Below are positions 2,394-29,700 of a stretch of 32,149 nt of DNA, in pieces (the first letter of the stretch is position 1; every line of letters begins with the position of its first letter). Source of the stretch: a virus. The notes under the pieces are model-generated. The model was given only the letters and a program-made list of their open reading frames with translations, had not been told where the DNA came from and searched no databases. Both the position numbers and the translations under genes were made by a program. The DNA is taken from IMG/VR virus record IMGVR_UViG_3300006128_000032, positions 1 to 32,149 of that record, one strand, 5' to 3'.

Positions 2394-2467
2394 TGGTGCC
2401 TTCGACAAGAATCGAACTTGTGATAACCGCTTATCAAGCGGACGTTATACCGTTTAACTACAAAGGC
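2394..2467 (-). tRNA. tRNA-Ile(GAT)
   Basis: Acceptor GCCTTTG/CGAAGGC, anticodon loop TTGATAA (GAT) on a CCGC/GCGG stem, T arm ACAAG-TTCGATT-CTTGT and CCA encoded. Its 5' 14 nt overlap the 3' end of the endonuclease gene at 2454-3086. Confidence 0.88.
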
Positions 2468-3086
2468 TTTTTATGAATTCATGTGTCAATTCATGTTCCA
2501 ATAAAACAATGACTCTGACTGTGTTTTGTTCTTTTACTTTTTCTATCTTGGTCGTATCAAGTTTTGCTTTGTACGAATTTTTTGGATCTAGATACAAGTC
2601 GTATTCCGGAAGATAAAAATCTGCGAAATAATTCCTACCATCATACTTTAATGCTGGCGGTCTAATCCACTGTATTCCTAACTCATTCAGTAATACACTA
2701 CATTTTAATTCAAATGTACTTTGTAGACAAACTTCCTTACCAAACGAATCTAATACATGAAACTTCTTGCTTCTTCCTGCATTTGGCTGATATCCACCCA
2801 GACCTTTATCTTTAGCAATCACTGATAGATGAGCCTTTTGTTCATCAGTGAGATACCTCGGGTTGGAGGTCGCAGTCTTTGATATTGATTTAGCCATAAC
2901 ACTAACTCTAGTATCAGCTTCGGCAGTTAAACCTTTATTCCAAGCTGTTCTTCCGAAGTTGCCAGGAAATTGCACTTGTGTCTTTATCCCGGGACATTTT
3001 TCTCCATGACTTCTGGATAGTTGACTTGTTGTTGTTTCTTGTTTACACTTGATACAAGAGCACATTATTTGATATTTGGAAGACAT
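2454..3086 (-). CDS. Putative homing endonuclease, zinc-finger plus PD-(D/E)XK-like domain
   Basis: 210 aa. The N terminus has a CSCIKCK pair and downstream H/C residues suggesting a small zinc finger, then AWNKGLT, a NUMOD3-like DNA-binding motif. The C-terminal part has FELKCSVLLNELGIQWIRPP, then YFADFYLPEYDLYLDPKN, an Asp followed by D-x-K as in PD-(D/E)XK/Vsr-like nucleases. It is related to the product of 5848-6519, which has the same DFYLPE-DLY-DPKN block. Start ATG 3086 has ribosome site AGAGG 6 nt upstream and a late-type AGATAAATA box at 3104. The stop lies inside the tRNA-Ile gene, consistent with a mobile gene inserted in the tRNA array. Confidence 0.7.
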   Translation of the reverse strand: MSSKYQIMCSCIKCKQETTTSQLSRSHGEKCPGIKTQVQFPGNFGRTAWNKGLTAEADTRVSVMAKSISKTATSNPRYLTDEQKAHLSVIAKDKGLGGYQPNAGRSKKFHVLDSFGKEVCLQSTFELKCSVLLNELGIQWIRPPALKYDGRNYFADFYLPEYDLYLDPKNSYKAKLDTTKIEKVKEQNTVRVIVLLEHELTHEFIKSLCS

Positions 3087-3103
3087 ACAATACCTCTTTG
3101 TAT

Positions 3104-3111
3104 TATTTATC
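3104..3111 (-). promoter_or_regulatory. T4-late-type promoter box (GATAAATA)
   Basis: GATAAATA on the minus strand, upstream of the AGAGG ribosome site of the endonuclease gene starting at 3086. Confidence 0.55.
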
Positions 3112-3151
3112 TTACAGATCAAGAAAGTGCTTATTTTCTGAGTTATTTATT

Positions 3152-3732: not shown

Positions 3733-3742
3733 ATATAAAACA

Positions 3743-3802
3743 GGATGCATTTTTACGGTTTTGATTAAAAGTCAAATGTATAAAAATTTGCTGTTAGCAT
3801 CC
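3743..3802 (-). ncRNA. Helix-closed tRNA-Lys anticodon-arm mimic (element P2)
   Basis: An outer helix GGATGC/GCATCC is followed on the 5' side by unpaired AACAGCAA, then ATTTTTA/TAAAAAT, then TTTGA-CTTTTAA-TCAAA, a perfect tRNA-Lys(TTT) anticodon arm. There are no D, T or acceptor arms. The flanks match P1 and P3: CCA-GCTTTA before and TGTTTTATAT plus a tRNA 5' end after. Confidence 0.6.
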
Positions 3803-3808
3803 TAAAGC

Positions 3809-3890
3809 TGGTACCCCCGGTCAGATTTGAACTGACATATCATACTCCTCTGTTTGAGAGAGGCGACTTTACCAATTTGTCCACAGGGGC
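3809..3890 (-). tRNA. tRNA-Leu(CAA)
   Basis: Acceptor GCCCCTG/CGGGGGT, anticodon arm CCTCT-CTCAAAC-AGAGG (CAA), extended variable region, T arm GTCAG-TTCAAAT-CTGAC, A73 and CCA. Confidence 0.85.
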
Positions 3891-3892
3891 AA

Positions 3893-4081
3893 TTATATTT
3901 TTGTATCTACATGACGACCTTTAGTATTAGTGGGTTCTACTTTCCCAGTCTCATCATAAAGGTATTGTACGACCTCTGTAACTTTTTTGTGAGAAACAGG
4001 ATCTTCAAGTGTTGTATACACAGTGGTGCGATGCTTGTGATTAACCGCATCTATTGTATTGTGTATTGATTGAACTATCAT
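3893..4081 (-). CDS. 62-aa protein of unknown function
   Basis: ATG 4081 lies 4 nt after a TCATAAATA late-type box and has no Shine-Dalgarno sequence. The product starts MIVQSIHNTIDAVNHKHRTT and is hydrophilic, with no membrane segment or motif I recognise. The stop is 3 nt from the tRNA-Leu 5' end. The promoter-like box and placement support it as real; function is unknown. Confidence 0.55.
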   Translation of the reverse strand: MIVQSIHNTIDAVNHKHRTTVYTTLEDPVSHKKVTEVVQYLYDETGKVEPTNTKGRHVDTKI

Positions 4082-4095: not shown

Positions 4096-4178
4096 ACCAT
4101 ATAGAAACACACTCAATATTCTTATACGCCCGTGCCTTGCAAGCCGTTAAAATATAAGCGAATGTGTTTTTATATGGT
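4096..4178. repeat. Long inverted-repeat hairpin, copy E1
   Basis: 18-nt arms ACCATATAGAAACACACT and AATGTGTTTTTATATGGT pair at 16 of 18 positions and enclose 47 nt that pair further (CTTATA/TATAAG on the minus strand). E2 and E3 have identical arms but unrelated loops. Interval 4179-4262 has other pairings (CCCGGT/GCCGGG, CTGC/GCAG) and no convincing tRNA or gene. Confidence 0.85.
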
Positions 4179-4262
4179 TCTGCCGACCAAGCAGTAGAGC
4201 GGTAATGATTCCAGCGATCACCCGGCAGTCTAGACCGGGCACCAACAGCACACCTTGCTCTT

Positions 4263-4336
4263 ACCATATAGAAACACACTACTTGAACCTATGTTTCTCA
4301 TCGTGTCCACACAGGCGGAATGTGTTTTTATATGGT
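4263..4336. repeat. Long inverted-repeat hairpin, copy E2
   Basis: Same 18-nt arms as E1 with a different 38-nt loop. The interval 4337-4412 to E3 is closed by TGTAATG/CATTACA and has no gene. Confidence 0.85.
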
Positions 4337-4412
4337 TTGTAATGTTGACTACCTTAGTGGCCCACAGTCACGTTTGTCCACTCGCTTCTAGGTCGCATTT
4401 CTGCCATTACAT

Positions 4413-4492
4413 ACCATATAGAAACACACTCCCGGAGACGCATTACCTCCCCGTACCGAAGTATTATGAATTCGAATGTGTTTTTATATGGT
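4413..4492. repeat. Long inverted-repeat hairpin, copy E3
   Basis: Same 18-nt arms with a different 44-nt loop, which contains GGAG/CTCC pairing. The three copies start 167 and 150 nt apart within the gene-free stretch 4094-4525. Confidence 0.85.
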
Positions 4493-4525: not shown

Positions 4526-5434
4526 ATGCCTAATTATACAACATTTACATGTTCTTGCATAGTCTGCAAACAACCAAAAACCTCAAAAGGTATTCATTCT
4601 CATTATCTCATTTCTCATACAGAAGAAGGACGAGTAAGAAATCGTAAAAATCGTCTTGCTGGTGGATTATTAGGTTCTGAAATTGCTAAACAAAATGCAC
4701 AGCAAATTCAAAATCAATATTTAGAAAATCCTAACAAATGCAAACAGTGCGATGTCTCTCTTACATACGATCAGCGTCATAATAAATTCTGTTCAACATC
4801 CTGTTCGGCAAGTTTTTACAACAAGGATCGAAAAGGTGTTGCTCTAGATGCTACTGTGAAACAAAAGATTTCAGATAGTGTTAAAAAGTTTAATCTAGAA
4901 AATCCTTACACCAAATCAAAACAGATGTTTAGCAGACTATCGTATTGTTGTATATGCAACTCTGTCATACAAAACAAAATTGTTAAAACTTGTTCTTCTA
5001 AATGCAAGTCAGTGCTGTTATCAAACAACATGTCCGATAGAATCAAACAAAACAGAAGAAGTAATTATCGCAGAGATAAAAGATCTTATCTCGAAGAATC
5101 ATTTGAAACTTGGTTGTTGGATAATAACATTTCTCTAAAATATGAAACTGAATACACTATTAAAAATCATATTACACAGAAATGGTATTTCGTGGATTTC
5201 TACTTTCCCGAAATAAATCTTATAGTTGAACTTGACGGGAAACAGCACGAAAAACCTAAACACAAAGAAGCAGACAAACTTCGTGATGAATACATCGCTA
5301 CTAATCTAAACTTAAATGTTTTTAGAATTTCTTATGATGAATATCAAGCTGGTTCTAAAATAAACGAATTACTAAAATTATTGGTGAGGCAGGTGGGGTT
5401 CGAACCCACAAGGAGATTTCTCTCGCCAGATTAA
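4526..5434 (+). CDS. Putative homing endonuclease, zinc fingers plus Vsr/PD-(D/E)XK-like domain
   Basis: 302 aa. Cysteine pairs (CSCIVCK, CKQC with CSTSC, CCIC with CSSKC) suggest three treble-clef-like zinc modules in the first 175 residues. The C-terminal part has SYLEESFETWLLDNN, then YFVDFYFPEINLIVELDGKQH (Asp, then E-x-D-G-K) and NVFRISYDE, the layout of Vsr-like/DUF559-type PD-(D/E)XK nucleases. The last 16 residues are translated from the opposite strand of the tRNA at 5382-5469, so the reading frame runs 53 nt into that tRNA gene head-on. This fits a mobile endonuclease gene that landed beside a tRNA. Confidence 0.72.
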   Translation: MPNYTTFTCSCIVCKQPKTSKGIHSHYLISHTEEGRVRNRKNRLAGGLLGSEIAKQNAQQIQNQYLENPNKCKQCDVSLTYDQRHNKFCSTSCSASFYNKDRKGVALDATVKQKISDSVKKFNLENPYTKSKQMFSRLSYCCICNSVIQNKIVKTCSSKCKSVLLSNNMSDRIKQNRRSNYRRDKRSYLEESFETWLLDNNISLKYETEYTIKNHITQKWYFVDFYFPEINLIVELDGKQHEKPKHKEADKLRDEYIATNLNLNVFRISYDEYQAGSKINELLKLLVRQVGFEPTRRFLSPD

Positions 5435-5469
5435 AAGTCTGGTACCGCAGCCACTTCGGTGTCTGCCCC
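5382..5469 (-). tRNA. Class II tRNA with TTT (Lys) anticodon
   Basis: Acceptor GGGGCAG/CTGCCTC, anticodon arm CCAGA-CTTTTAA-TCTGG (anticodon TTT), T arm GTGGG-TTCGAAC-CCCAC, A73 and CCA. The variable arm is 16 nt with its own hairpin GAGA-GAAA-TCTC, and the D region (ACCGAAGTGGC) resembles tRNA-Leu. Bacterial tRNA-Lys is class I, so body and anticodon disagree. Charging by Lys or Leu enzymes cannot be decided here. Confidence 0.8.
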
Positions 5470-21165: not shown

Positions 21166-21336
21166 TTACTTCCCTATAATCCATGTTTTATTTTTTTTAC
21201 TGTAACGGAACCAAAATACTTTTGATTCCAAATTCTTACCGTAATGTAATAGAAATCCAAAACTACTTTTATCTGTTAGTGGATAAAAGTTGAATCCGTT
21301 ACGTACTTTCTCACCTTCTCGTCTGATGTATATCAT
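21166..21336 (-). CDS. 56-aa protein of unknown function
   Basis: Starts MIYIRREGEKVRNGFNFYPL and is basic and aromatic-rich. ATG 21336 overlaps the HNH gene stop (ATGA) and has GGAT upstream; a longer start at 21348 is possible. The stop abuts the aldolase-like start. Confidence 0.55.
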   Translation of the reverse strand: MIYIRREGEKVRNGFNFYPLTDKSSFGFLLHYGKNLESKVFWFRYSKKNKTWIIGK

Positions 21337-22016
21337 AATTTCATCCATTCTTGGTCTTGTGTTGGAACCCAACCACTTCTAAAATACTTTACCATATTCA
21401 TATATGGACCCACTTCTTTGCCATTTGTTTTCCAATCATATTTCTTATTCATTGTCAATCCATATAACTTACAGTATGATGGCTTTTCATTTGCTAACCA
21501 TATTTCATAAATCTCATCGGCTCTTTTCCATAGTGCTAATGTAACATCAGTTGTTCTTGGATGTTTCCACGGTTTAACGCCAGCACACGGATTATTGCTT
21601 TTCATTCTCTCAGACATTGATTTTATTGTTTTATCTGAGAAATTTACTTTATTCTTATAACCTGTTTTTCCTTTATTCCACGTACCGTTTAGAGTTGACG
21701 GATTATTTGGACCACTCATATACTCGCTAAATCTTCTCTTTAACCATCCATACATTTTGTTGCCTTGGCGTTTAGGACCTACTCCGCTTGCGGTCATAAA
21801 CATTGCAGCCCTTACTAATCCTATTTCATCTGGATATATTTTTACTAATAATTGATGACACACATAATGTTCTTCTGCTGTTAAATTGACTAAGTTAGAT
21901 GAATCGTCAGTTCCACCCATACATCGCGGAATAATATGATGGCTTTCGGTGTATCCTTCAAATATTCTGTTTTTTCCTCGTTTAACGATACTGTCGTATA
22001 TTTTTCGATAATCCAT
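21333..22016 (-). CDS. HNH homing endonuclease
   Basis: 227 aa. YTESHHIIPRCMGG with NLVNLTAEEHYVCHQLLV is the H-H-x14-N-x8-H core of HNH nucleases. GTWNKGKTGYKNK and NNPCAGVKPWKHP are NUMOD-type DNA-binding motifs. ATG 22016 has ribosome site GCAGGAG and a GATAAATA late-type box at 22035. It follows the NrdA C-terminal gene and probably targets that region. The mid-protein differs from the HNH protein at 23156-24091. Confidence 0.85.
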   Translation of the reverse strand: MDYRKIYDSIVKRGKNRIFEGYTESHHIIPRCMGGTDDSSNLVNLTAEEHYVCHQLLVKIYPDEIGLVRAAMFMTASGVGPKRQGNKMYGWLKRRFSEYMSGPNNPSTLNGTWNKGKTGYKNKVNFSDKTIKSMSERMKSNNPCAGVKPWKHPRTTDVTLALWKRADEIYEIWLANEKPSYCKLYGLTMNKKYDWKTNGKEVGPYMNMVKYFRSGWVPTQDQEWMKL

Positions 22017-22034
22017 ATAAGTCTCCTGCAAGTT

Positions 22035-22073: not shown

Positions 22074-23159
22074 CTAGAGCTTGCAGGCAATACAATCCTC
22101 TTCGTCGTCAAAGTCAATTGGCTCCAACATTGTAGGAGCGTCTTCTGCCACTTGTTTGCTACCAGCTTTATTTATGAGTGAGTAATATAGTGTCTTTCCT
22201 CCCCAATAGTAGAAGTTCATCAAGTTCTTAGCAATCAATGTTGTAGGAACTTTTCTGTCAGGGAAGTGTGCAGGATTGTAGAATGTGTTAGTGCTGATAC
22301 TTTGATCCACATATGCTTGAATGACAGCACTGGTCTTTAAGTATGCTTCACAATCAGTTTGATCCCACATTAGTTGATACTTGTTCTTTAGTTTGTGATA
22401 CTCAGGAACAACTTGAACAAAACTACCTGCTTTACTTTCCTTGACACTAATTAAACTCATTGGCATTTCAATACCATTTGTAGAATTAATTACTACACTA
22501 CTAGATTCTACAGGAGCTACAGCCATTTGTGTAGCGTTACGGACACCATAACTACGCATCAATGCTCGTAGACCTTCCCAGTTTAATTCTGGAGTGAAGT
22601 CTGCTAATTCATTGACACCATTTGCTCTGCGTTCCCAAGGGAAGATAGCTTGACCATAATATGTCTTATCACTGTGTTCGCAACGACCACGCTCTTGTGC
22701 CAATTCAACACTAGATTCAGTCAAATAGTATGCTTGATGTTCCATCCAGGCTTTGACATCTTGTAATGCATCTGGTGTGCCATATTTGTAACCACGCTTT
22801 GCATGCCAGTATGCTAAGTTAGTGATACCGATACCAATTGGACGAATCTCGTCATTACTTAATTTAGATTGAATGGATAAGAAGTCTTGGTAATCGAGTA
22901 TATTGTTAAGACTGCGATGTAAAATGCGGCAGGCGCGGCGCATATCTTCTGGGTGCCTAAAACTCCCCCAATTGATCGAACCAAGAGTACAAAGAGAGAT
23001 GCGTCCATCAGCATCATCAAGGCGCTTAAAAGATTTTGTGGGAAGAAGGATTTCGCAATTATGGACTAGTATATTGTCTGCAAAAAAACATTCAGTTTCT
23101 GGGACTGATAAATCGTATACATCTGTGGGTTTTACTTTAATTTTTTTAATTTTAATCAT
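22074..23159 (-). CDS. nrdA: Split NrdA: C-intein plus C-terminal part of RNR alpha subunit
   Basis: 361 aa. Residues 1-34 are a C-intein (VYDLSVPETECFFADNILVHN ends in the intein's His-Asn), then Cys+1 and CEILLPTKSF, the NrdA sequence that follows the active-site cysteine. The remaining ~327 residues carry the alpha-barrel second half (CTLGSINWGSF, MAVAPVESSS-type finger loop, tail DCIACKL with the redox Cys pair). It must trans-splice with the product of 24125-25780. The ATG overlaps the HNH gene stop by 4 nt (ATGA), so translation is coupled to the endonuclease. Confidence 0.92.
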   Translation of the reverse strand: MIKIKKIKVKPTDVYDLSVPETECFFADNILVHNCEILLPTKSFKRLDDADGRISLCTLGSINWGSFRHPEDMRRACRILHRSLNNILDYQDFLSIQSKLSNDEIRPIGIGITNLAYWHAKRGYKYGTPDALQDVKAWMEHQAYYLTESSVELAQERGRCEHSDKTYYGQAIFPWERRANGVNELADFTPELNWEGLRALMRSYGVRNATQMAVAPVESSSVVINSTNGIEMPMSLISVKESKAGSFVQVVPEYHKLKNKYQLMWDQTDCEAYLKTSAVIQAYVDQSISTNTFYNPAHFPDRKVPTTLIAKNLMNFYYWGGKTLYYSLINKAGSKQVAEDAPTMLEPIDFDDEEDCIACKL

Positions 23160-24091
23160 ACTTTTATTCTTCCTAACACATATTCTGTATTGTGTTTACA
23201 AAATTCTTCTTCATTGATAACTCTTACATTTTGTACACCGTTGTTGTACCAACGATGTTTTGCTGAATGTTCTGCTGCAATTTTTCGCTGTTCGGGACTT
23301 CTATGATATGGATCATATTTTACAGTTAGATTCAAGTTTTCATTTGTTTCATTTATTAAGTTTTCTAGCGATCCAAATTTATTACCTATCCACGCTAATG
23401 ATATTTTATTGAATTCTACAAATTCTTTTTTCATTGCGTCCTGCAATAAATGCAATTTTAGATAACCTTCTTGACAAGATTCAGAAACACATTTCCACAT
23501 TCTTTCCCTTCGGTCTTGTGTCAGCTCCTTAAAGTTTGTATTTTTGGAACCTGACATATCTCTGGCAGATTTTCCCGGTAACCCTTTACTGTGGTGTATC
23601 CATTCTCCTGATATCACCTTAGGATGATCTACTGGAACAGAGCCTTGCTTTTCTCTAGAAACAGCATCAACCACTGGCATCATTCCAGTTCTTGCTTTAC
23701 TAATACATTGGTTGCCTAGCAGTCTAAGATGTTCCATTTCTTTGAGAAACTTTTCATCAACTTCTGATAGATTGATCTGTCGTTTATGATTGCCGGTCGC
23801 TTTTACAAAAAAGAATTGCAGGGCAGACCCCGCAGAATATTCATACCGAGTTCCTTTATAAATCTCATACAAGTAGTAATGAGCCATTAAATGCTCGGAA
23901 AAAGTCAATAAAATTAAATTTTCTGCACTATCTGGATTACCATCTAGATGTCCTTTTGGTCCGGTTCTCTTTCTGTTCTTGTATAAGAAATCAGGAACGA
24001 TATGGTGTCGTTCATAGTAGGTTCCTTGATTTTTCATTCTATTTTCTTTTCTTGCATTATCAATTATATTCTTATAAAGTTCTTTATACAT
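23156..24091 (-). CDS. HNH endonuclease gene between the split-intein halves
   Basis: 311 aa. TYYERHHIVPDFLYKN and NLILLTFSEHLMAHYYLYEI form the H-H-x-N-H core. The C-terminal part HRSPEQRKIAAEHSAKHRWYNNGVQN has the helical W-Y-N-N-G motif common in phage HNH proteins. It is free-standing with its own late-type GAATAAATAC box (24109) and ribosome site GGAG, between the two NrdA halves. This matches the fractured-gene arrangement described for split inteins from environmental phage DNA. Confidence 0.88.
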   Translation of the reverse strand: MYKELYKNIIDNARKENRMKNQGTYYERHHIVPDFLYKNRKRTGPKGHLDGNPDSAENLILLTFSEHLMAHYYLYEIYKGTRYEYSAGSALQFFFVKATGNHKRQINLSEVDEKFLKEMEHLRLLGNQCISKARTGMMPVVDAVSREKQGSVPVDHPKVISGEWIHHSKGLPGKSARDMSGSKNTNFKELTQDRRERMWKCVSESCQEGYLKLHLLQDAMKKEFVEFNKISLAWIGNKFGSLENLINETNENLNLTVKYDPYHRSPEQRKIAAEHSAKHRWYNNGVQNVRVINEEEFCKHNTEYVLGRIKV

Positions 24092-26705: not shown

Positions 26706-29700
26706 TTAGAATGTAATTGTCCCTGAACTGGTCCATGCATATATGTAATATCCATTAAGTATGGTATAACTTGGACTACCTGTTATTGATGACGGTAAAG
26801 GATAAGTAGTTGGATAACGAATGATTACAATACCGCTACCACCACTACCAGTAGTGTTAGAACCACTACCTCCACCACCTCCACCGCCTCCACCACCACC
26901 GGTGTTAGCTGTACCAGCAGTACCTGCAGCATTGGTTGAAGCAGTTCCAGCGCCACCTCCACCTAATCCACCTATACCCGGAGTAGTTGAAGAATATGCA
27001 CCACCTCCACCACCGCCTGCGTATGCTATACTATAAAATGGATTGTATGGTAATGAAACAGCAGCACCGTTATTGGTTATAGTAAAGTTATTAATTGACG
27101 CATCAGTTAAATAACTACTGCCATATACAGTATTCAATAATAATGCTGTATATCCAAATGGCTGTATACTATTAGTTATGGTTACTGATCCGTTATTGGT
27201 AATAGAAAATGCATAAGGACCATTATCAACTATAGTAGAACTTTGTGCAGTTAGTAATACTGTTACAGGGAATGGCTGAGTAGTATTGGTTGTAGTTACT
27301 GTTCCGTTATTTGTAATAGAAAATGCATAAGAGCTATTATCAACAATCGTAGAACTTTGTGCAGTTAATAAACTAGTTTGTGTTCCTGTTATAGCAGCTA
27401 TATTAGTTCCAGCACTTTGTGTTGCTGTTAATGGACTTGTTGGTGGTGTGAAGTTACCTGTATATACTGCTGTGCCTTTAACATATCTAAAGTTACTGAT
27501 ATATCCAGAGTATGGTCCTGATGGGGTATATCCGTTTGTAAGGTTGCCAATTGCAGCAAATGTTTGTGTTCCATCAAGTGCCGAAAAACCAGTAGCATTT
27601 AATACGCTAGTGGCTACACCATTTATAAAAATAGTTAAGCTATTGCTGTTAATTACTAATGCAACATGCGACCAGGTGTTTAGAGTAAGTGTTTGTGTGG
27701 TAGTGAAACTATAGTTAGTTCCACCGGTACTAGCTCTTATTTGGTATTGAATTTGACCAGTTGTACTTAATTGCCAAAGTAGTCCACCCCAGTTAACTGT
27801 TGCTGTGTTTGTAACTTGATATACAATTGGCGTACCGCTGAATGAGGTTGGGTACAGCCATGCTTCAAACGTGTATGTTGCCCCGGGGCTAACAATTGCA
27901 GCATTTATTGGAAGGGTCAAATATTGACTACTACCATTAAAACTATCACTATATGTTGGTGTACTATTTGGTAGTGCAGCTATATTAGTTCCAGCACCTT
28001 GTGCTACTGTTAGTGGACTTGTTGGTGGTGTGAAGTTACCTGTATATACTGCTGTACCGTTTACAATTCTTAAATTAGAAATATATCCAGGAAAATATAA
28101 AGTAGGTGTGTACTGAGAACCTATGTGAACAATAGGAGAAGTTACATTATAGTTAGAGTTATCTGTACCGGTTGCTACTTGTACCCCGTTAACAAATAAA
28201 TAACCAGTAGTACCAGAACGACAATATGCAATATGATACCAAGATCCAGCTGTAATCCTTGATGTAGTTGTATCATAAACACTGATGGATCCAGTATATC
28301 CTGCCCAACAAAGTTGACCAGAAGAAGCACTGCCAGTACCCCAACCTAATGCCCAAGTATTAGTAGTACTGGAATTCCTAGCATCCAATAGAATCGGAGT
28401 AGTCGGAGTGGTTGTTGGATAAATCCACATTTCTACGGTGAAGTTGCTCGTACCGAATGATACACTTGTACCAGGAGTATATGTCAAATACTGACTAGTA
28501 CCATTAAAACTATCACTATATGTTGGTGTTGTATTTATTATGGCATTTATGTTAGTACTAGCATTTTGTGTGCTTGACAGAGGTCCTGTTGGTACTGTAA
28601 AGTTTCCAGTATATACTGCAATACCGTTCACTATTCGTAGATTACTGATATATCCGTTAAAGTATCCAGCAGGTGCAGAATATTGATATCTACCAATTGC
28701 TAAATTATATGTTGGGGCAGATGCACTGTACGCAAAAGATGGTTGAGCAGATGATGCTACATTGATACCGTTGACATACCAAGTTCCAGTTTTAGTAGAA
28801 CTGACGAAAGTAAATGCTATGTGTGTCCAAACTTGAGCTGATATTTTGCCAGTAGCTGTTGCAAAAGTAATTGATTGTCCGGTGACCCCTTTGTATATAG
28901 ACATTTCAATTGTTCCAGCTCCAGAATTATTAACAGCTACATTGACACCAATTGACGCTGACGCCGCATCAGTAGAAAGAATAGTATATGCTGTAGCAGT
29001 ATCATTAACCCATATCCATGCTTCTACAGTATAATCTGATAAACCGTTGTGTAAGAATGTCCAATTGGTATTAGTGCCGGCAGTTAAATAGCTACTGCTA
29101 CCATTAAAACTTATACCACCAAGGTTGCTACCATAGAATGTAGTTACTGACCCAGCACCACCGTTACCAGGTGTTGATGTACTAGTAACAGTAGTACCTG
29201 CAGCACCTGCACCTCCACCACCACCACCAGAAATATAACCACTGCCAGATGCACTGCCACCACTATTACCTTGACCACTAGTACCGGCACCACCGCTACT
29301 TGTACCATATCCACTGCCACCACCACCTGAACCACCTAATAGACCTGTCACAACTCCTCCTGCAGAAGTGCCGCCTCCACCTCCGCCAATAGCAGCAATA
29401 GTGAATGGATTACTAGTAGATGAAGTTGCAGTACCGTTATTTGTAACAGTAAAATTGTTAGTTGATGAATCAACTAAGAAATTAGTACCAGGTACAGTAT
29501 TCAATAATAGACTAGTACTTGTTATACTTGTAATAGCTGCTATGTTAGTACCAGCATTTTGTGTAATCGTTAATGGATTAATTGGTGGTGTAAATGCTCC
29601 TGTATATACTGCTGTACCGTTAACAATTCTAAAATTAGAAATATATCCAGTAAACCACTGTCCACCTGCACTTTTACCAATGTATAATGTGGCTCCGGAT

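Follow-up and report, generated by a model that had tools for sequence, protein, structure and literature searches.

Three hairpins embedded in a phage tRNA array are probably small structured RNA modules that are co-transcribed with the tRNAs and whose variable parts are swapped by recombination through their constant stems. They lie in the window, by which is meant the whole stretch of DNA that was analysed, a virus fragment from IMG/VR that is 32,149 bases long. Each module would combine a constant "handle", an 18-bp helix that reads CCAUAUAAAAACACAUU/AGUGUGUUUCUAUAUGG in the RNA sense, with a variable "head" of about 25-75 nt that forms small helices of its own. The first bases of the handle coincide with the CCA encoded at the end of the upstream tRNA, and its last bases, UGG, could pair with that CCA. 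The modules would be transcribed as part of the polycistronic tRNA transcript and may be released by the enzymes that mature the tRNAs, through cuts at the CCA and at the 5' end of the next tRNA, and the near-identical handles would supply the homology through which phages exchange heads.

All 19 tRNA genes of the window are on the minus strand, so that the hairpins are probably read in that direction as well. The elements around them are listed here in the order of that strand.

8060 to 8073, minus strand: small hairpin GTGTA-ATAA-TACAC, directly before the leader-type hairpin
7989 to 8057, minus strand: leader-type hairpin that precedes the first tRNA of the array, with handle GGCATTCTAAAACATACT/AGTGTGTTTTAGAATGTA and a 37-nt head
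4413 to 4492, minus strand: handle-head hairpin 3, with an 18-bp handle and the 44-nt head CGAATTCATAATACTTCGGTACGGGGAGGTAATGCGTCTCCGGG; the first transcribed of the three
4337 to 4412, minus strand: tRNA-like segment between hairpins 2 and 3, with a 7-bp acceptor-like stem TGTAATG/CATTACA followed by ACCA
4263 to 4336, minus strand: handle-head hairpin 2, with an 18-bp handle and a 38-nt head, within a 158-bp unit that contig L023 is without
4179 to 4262, minus strand: structured segment between hairpins 1 and 2 that ends in ...CGGCAGA-ACCA and, together with hairpin 2, makes up the unit absent from L023
4096 to 4178, minus strand: handle-head hairpin 1, with an 18-bp handle and a 47-nt head

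The arms of the three hairpins are exactly at 4096-4113/4161-4178, 4263-4280/4319-4336 and 4413-4430/4475-4492. The original prediction, that the three share identical 18-nt arms around loops of 47, 38 and 44 nt, was borne out in full: the arm matches six times in the window, as compared to 0.09 matches expected, and none of 100 shuffles reached six. The fourth stem that it placed at 7989-8055 is real, but the proposed ends were slightly short, as the arms occupy 7989-8004 and 8042-8057. The stem shared by the three hairpins reads CCATATAAAAACACATT / AGTGTGTTTCTATATGG on the minus strand, with an A before it and a T after it. It is imperfect: on the plus strand, position 9 is a G·T and position 17 a C·A, which correspond to A·C and U·G on the minus strand. 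On that strand, the outer ACCA of each stem takes the position of a tRNA 3' end, that is, the discriminator base and CCA.

The heads of the window hairpins are themselves structured, and their types recur in other contigs. The head type of hairpin 3 is found after tRNA-Leu(UAG) and beside tRNA-Phe, a close variant of the hairpin 2 head lies between tRNA-Lys and tRNA-His in L081, and the head type of hairpin 1 occurs between tRNA-Lys and tRNA-Tyr or tRNA-Asp. The head type of the leader hairpin recurs on an inter-tRNA handle of another phage. Segments related to that at 4337-4412 are present in L023, L045 and L071; the window segment has no recognisable T-arm and was not called as a tRNA by ARAGORN or Rfam.

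The presence of a related leader hairpin before the first tRNA, both in the window and in relatives, could suggest that the hairpins control transcription of the long tRNA operon as anti-terminator, pause or terminator elements, as could the GNRA-type loop of the small hairpin in tandem with it. By inspection of the sequence, homologues of this small hairpin have either the same stem with a GCAA loop or an altered stem, CTTTC-GCAA-GAAAG. Control of transcription is nonetheless a very improbable role for the modules: the heads are large and varied, the sequence after the stem has no U-tract, and the copies are found beside particular tRNAs within the array, not where it begins.

The exact stem, with a loop of 20-50 nt, was found in 96 IMG/VR contigs of up to 525 kb, always in tRNA arrays, and a looser scan for viral handles gave at least 120 matches. 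The carriers of fixed-stem hairpins are many uncultured phages, mostly from lake water. Neither the exact stem nor a relaxed handle pattern has a match in about 85,000 bacterial and archaeal species genomes, and a bacterial origin of the handle was rejected on that basis. Across 184 loci including the window, which are metagenomic contigs that are partly fragments and are not independent when drawn from the same samples, 381 good handle-type hairpins contain 282 distinct loops in 186 similarity families. Single members make up 109 of the 186 families. When all 396 candidate hairpins are counted, 68 loci have one copy and the others have two to eight. Fixed loops with a constant copy number, which the original prediction had named as speaking against mobile or cassette elements, are not what is seen, given that both loops and copy number vary.

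The position of the hairpins relative to the tRNAs is nearly invariant. All 126 exact handles are in the tRNA sense and none is inverted, with 106 of them within 10 nt of a tRNA and all within 1 kb. The 5' arm begins at the CCA of the upstream tRNA; in 111 of the 118 cases where the two adjoin, they share exactly 4 nt (NCCA). The other arm of the handle often reaches into the 5' end of the next tRNA. Such a conserved stem, set exactly between the CCA and the next tRNA, might be a processing or insulating hairpin of which the stem alone matters, as a spacer or RNase substrate for tRNA folding or maturation, with the loop as filler. Some loops do hold pieces of tRNA, such as a T-arm, and most spacers in the same arrays are free of hairpins but very short. 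However, the same tRNA pairs are elsewhere joined by ordinary spacers of 5-8 nt (for example, ACCA-ATTTT-ggt as opposed to ACCA-[hairpin]-ggt), suggesting that the hairpin is dispensable for processing. Filler should also drift, whereas heads of intermediate identity (65-85%) are absent at matched sites, and within head families the internal helices covary and the loops stay invariant from one phage to another. A role restricted to processing is therefore unlikely.

The empty and filled sites bear as well on a DNA mobile element that targets tRNA 3' ends, whether MITE-like, a single-strand transposon hairpin or an attC-like site. Such an element would account for discrete presence or absence at the same junction, for the specific target, for the same head at many sites and for the gain or loss of the 158-bp unit. 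It would not readily account for the single orientation (126:0), for covariation that is biased toward G·U or for the lack of target-site duplications at empty and filled pairs such as L071/L076 and L111/L010. The exact set has no copies outside of arrays, and among the window array ORFs that were checked in Pfam, the matches are to DUF559/PvuRts1I-like and HNH endonuclease domains and none is to a recombinase or transposase. This explanation is accordingly held to be quite improbable, and the miniature mobile elements offered in the original prediction were set aside for want of target-site duplications, for the uniform orientation and for the confinement of exact-stem copies to tRNA arrays.

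The preferred reading, of modules that function as RNA, draws on the pattern of base changes in handles and heads. At handle positions 9-16 from the CCA, 112 G·U pairs were counted versus 15 A·C pairs in stems selected on Watson-Crick pairs only, and at positions 12-17 the ratio is 185:0, in a set that is partly biased. Because G·U is far above A·C, selection probably acts on the RNA in the tRNA sense. Not every mismatch fits an RNA reading, since position 9 of the commonest handle (18-nt arm numbering) is frequently A·C in the tRNA sense and G·U on the other strand.

Compensatory changes extend into the heads. In an alignment of 20 sequences of head family C, 98.7% of cells are paired and 10 pairs have changed on both sides; the whole structure is matched by none of 500 shuffles on all five measures and is far above slid controls. 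Three of the four pairs of its helix 3 have changed on both sides, including U-A to G-C and C-G to A-U, and helix 2 with its loop GUUCAU is invariant. Head family E (11 sequences) has 24 cells changed on both sides, again reached by none of 500 shuffles, with both-sided changes in four of the eight pairs of helix 2. In the two alignments, A1 and A2, compensatory base changes thus exceed both shuffles and slid controls, as is expected of small structured RNAs. Against the RNA reading, the predicted folding of heads surpasses that of mononucleotide shuffles by only a small margin (mean z -0.51, n=185). Two head families contain short self-complementary elements that change yet stay palindromic (CUUGCAAG/CCUGCAGG; GGCC/GUAC/GCGC), and these might be dimer contacts, although this is only suggestive. 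Heads as antisense to tRNAs were rejected, as matches were not above those of shuffles, and heads as anticodon-arm mimics were considered, with no consistent match seen by eye. RNA scaffolds that present variable loops, the best of the four ideas in the original prediction, are supported by the strand asymmetry, by covariation in stem and head and by the fixed position at tRNA 3' ends.

Exchange of heads is most evident at matched sites, defined as pairs in which both 100-nt flanks are at least 90% identical. There are 82 such pairs, of which 76 have the same head, six have unrelated heads (36-44% identity) and none lies in between. For L138 and L165, the 100-nt flanks are 100% identical on both sides and the heads only 39%, within a stretch of 1.27 kb that is 95.6% identical. 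The window and L084 are 97.3% identical over 1,181 nt, through an endonuclease gene and as far as the first arm of hairpin 3, beyond which the heads differ. Two stretches of 6,567 and 2,665 nt in L023 match the window without a difference, and all that L023 lacks is one 158-bp arm-to-arm unit; misassembly at 20-bp repeats could account for this. The same heads recur beside different tRNAs, and 53 of the 77 multi-member head families occur on more than one handle sequence. These comparisons indicate that heads are replaced by recombination in or around the handle and not by gradual change. The suggestions of gene conversion and of cassette boundaries hold up in the form of whole-head exchange between identical flanks and of the presence or absence of the 158-bp unit.

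The hairpins belong to a wider class of inserts, in which a stem of 14 or more positions, whatever its sequence, begins at an encoded CCA. Stems scoring at least 12 number 250, as compared to none in the shuffled set, and the 250 CCA-anchored inserts (about 60–250 nt) fall into 112 head families. The class includes long inserts of 120-250 nt on quite different handles, and its members prefer sites after tRNA-Lys(UUU), Glu(UUC), Gln(UUG) and Leu(UAG). Since loci were gathered by handle sequence, that handle and tRNA-Lys are overrepresented. Among 80 de-duplicated inserts that were not selected by pattern, 29 follow tRNA-Glu(UUC) (4.0 expected), 11 follow Leu(UAG) (2.3), nine follow Lys(UUU) (4.0) and seven follow Gln(UUG) (3.2), with phylogeny ignored.

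A family of structured RNAs of 210-250 nt follows tRNA-Glu(UUC) in L008, L071, L076, L111, L146, L152 and others, closed by a long helix that starts at the CCA of the tRNA-Glu; the L071 copy has no Rfam overlap, and cultured phages have nothing that matches the L008 copy. A second kind of insert lies between tRNAs at 3735-3806 and 6822-6915 of the window (minus strand), with flanks AGGATN.../...NATCCTGTTTT and, close to the 5' side, a conserved motif (U)NACAGCAA or UUCAGCAA. Its part at about 6840-6891 is like a permuted tRNA, and the similar inserts at 1818-1871 of L060 and 279-333 of L066 have sub-threshold matches to the Dictyostelium Class I RNA model.

The preference for certain tRNAs raises the possibility of a role in defence, because the first of the favoured tRNAs, tRNA-Lys(UUU), is an anticodon nuclease target. 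It is the target of PrrC, and the tRNAs that phages carry are believed to counteract such host nucleases (PMC10264068). Speculatively, heads could serve in trans as RNA decoys or inhibitors that are rapidly exchanged in a conflict over tRNAs. We tentatively raise as a possibility that the modules are exchangeable RNA cassettes, with a constant handle on the CCA ends of particular tRNAs, that are matured together with the tRNAs and whose heads are swapped against host defences. If so, the cassette system would be an RNA counterpart of the swappable islands of anti-defence genes. Phage tRNA arrays are usually read as tRNA suppliers; in addition, they appear to carry a large and seemingly unrecorded stock of small structured RNAs, with 112-186 head families in the loci examined. 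If the heads act in trans, they would add a new layer to the conflict between phage and host. Should the modules do no more than help tRNA processing, their CCA-anchored handle would represent a maturation signal of a new type.

RNAs among phage tRNAs are already known: GOLLD and ROOL, which are large structured RNAs of phages and prophages, lie near tRNA islands (PMC12286853). The handle-head modules are likewise structured and presumably noncoding RNAs among phage tRNAs, and all 126 exact handles have this location trait, at no more than 1 kb from a tRNA. However, GOLLD and ROOL run to hundreds of nucleotides and adopt one defined fold, whereas the modules are mostly 65-100 nt with a shared handle and many unrelated heads. 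Rfam gave no non-tRNA match over the window hairpins, nor over the inserts that were located in L060, L066, L071 and L113, and the best 150 matches of an Rfam gathering scan of 14 loci were only to tRNA, tmRNA and one group I intron. Membership in a known Rfam family was rejected, since none, including the GOLLD and ROOL covariance models, lies over the modules examined.

Other systems share some of these traits. The tRNA cluster of phage T4 reportedly yields stable small RNAs that are not tRNAs, a likeness in that they are cut from a tRNA precursor; they are not known to have a shared handle or a repertoire of heads that are exchanged. Integron attC sites are folded, with conserved arms and a variable middle, and cassettes are gained and lost as units, as in the modules. 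The modules differ in that strand bias and covariation point to RNA and in that the variable part is inside the hairpin, and no integrase was found in the few window array ORFs scanned. Bacterial Y RNAs (YrlA), bound by Rsr/Ro, resemble the modules in having an end-pairing stem and a variable effector domain, which is sometimes tRNA-like. Identity with Ro/Y RNAs was rejected, as the YrlA covariance model does not match the handle-head hairpins, its sole sub-threshold match (30.5 bits) being to the unrelated window segment 6840-6891, and as Ro/Rsr (TROVE) protein is absent from all seven large relative contigs (221-525 kb, possibly incomplete). No description of constant-handle, variable-head RNAs in tRNA arrays was found in a literature search that covered subscription papers poorly, and the modules are apparently an undescribed group of phage RNAs.

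In cultured phages, the window region, one hairpin and two long inserts match only tRNAs or chance pieces. A 21-nt match in Phage NCTB was dismissed, as the stretch has neither a tRNA nor such a stem. The closest NrdB (62%) is that of Xanthomonas phage X1, in which a large tRNA array adjoins the ribonucleotide reductase genes; a strong CCA-anchored stem follows none of the 38 predicted tRNAs of this phage. Therefore, the handle-head feature is not generic to phage tRNA arrays. Two contigs carry permuted tmRNA genes of the betaproteobacterial type (L002, 13913-14302, and L092, 5904-6273; 137 and 133 bits to Rfam beta_tmRNA), a hint that the hosts of the hairpin-bearing phages may be betaproteobacterial.

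Several endonuclease genes lie in and after the tRNA array. The gene at 4526-5434 of the window, on the plus strand, encodes a DUF559/PvuRts1I-like endonuclease of the PD-(D/E)xK type and lies between hairpin 3, which retains a Lys-like remnant CCCCT-ACCA, and the tRNA-Lys(ttt) at 5382-5469, which the gene overlaps. L084 has the same gene at the same site, with a different hairpin head, and also has a group I intron match (61 bits) inside its tRNA array at 3787-3974 on the minus strand. Likely free-standing endonuclease genes are found in the window at 2454-3122, 5848-6519, 21333-22031 and 23156-24091; that at 21333-22031 has a weak HNH match, and the other three are without a significant Pfam match. 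The gene at 23156-24091 separates two parts of a ribonucleotide reductase large subunit, the ends of which look like intein pieces. Very glycine-rich, repetitive proteins of about 1470 and 297 amino acids with LamG-like repeats are encoded at 26706-32118 on the minus strand, in an ORF that runs nearly to the contig end, and are likely tail or fibre proteins.
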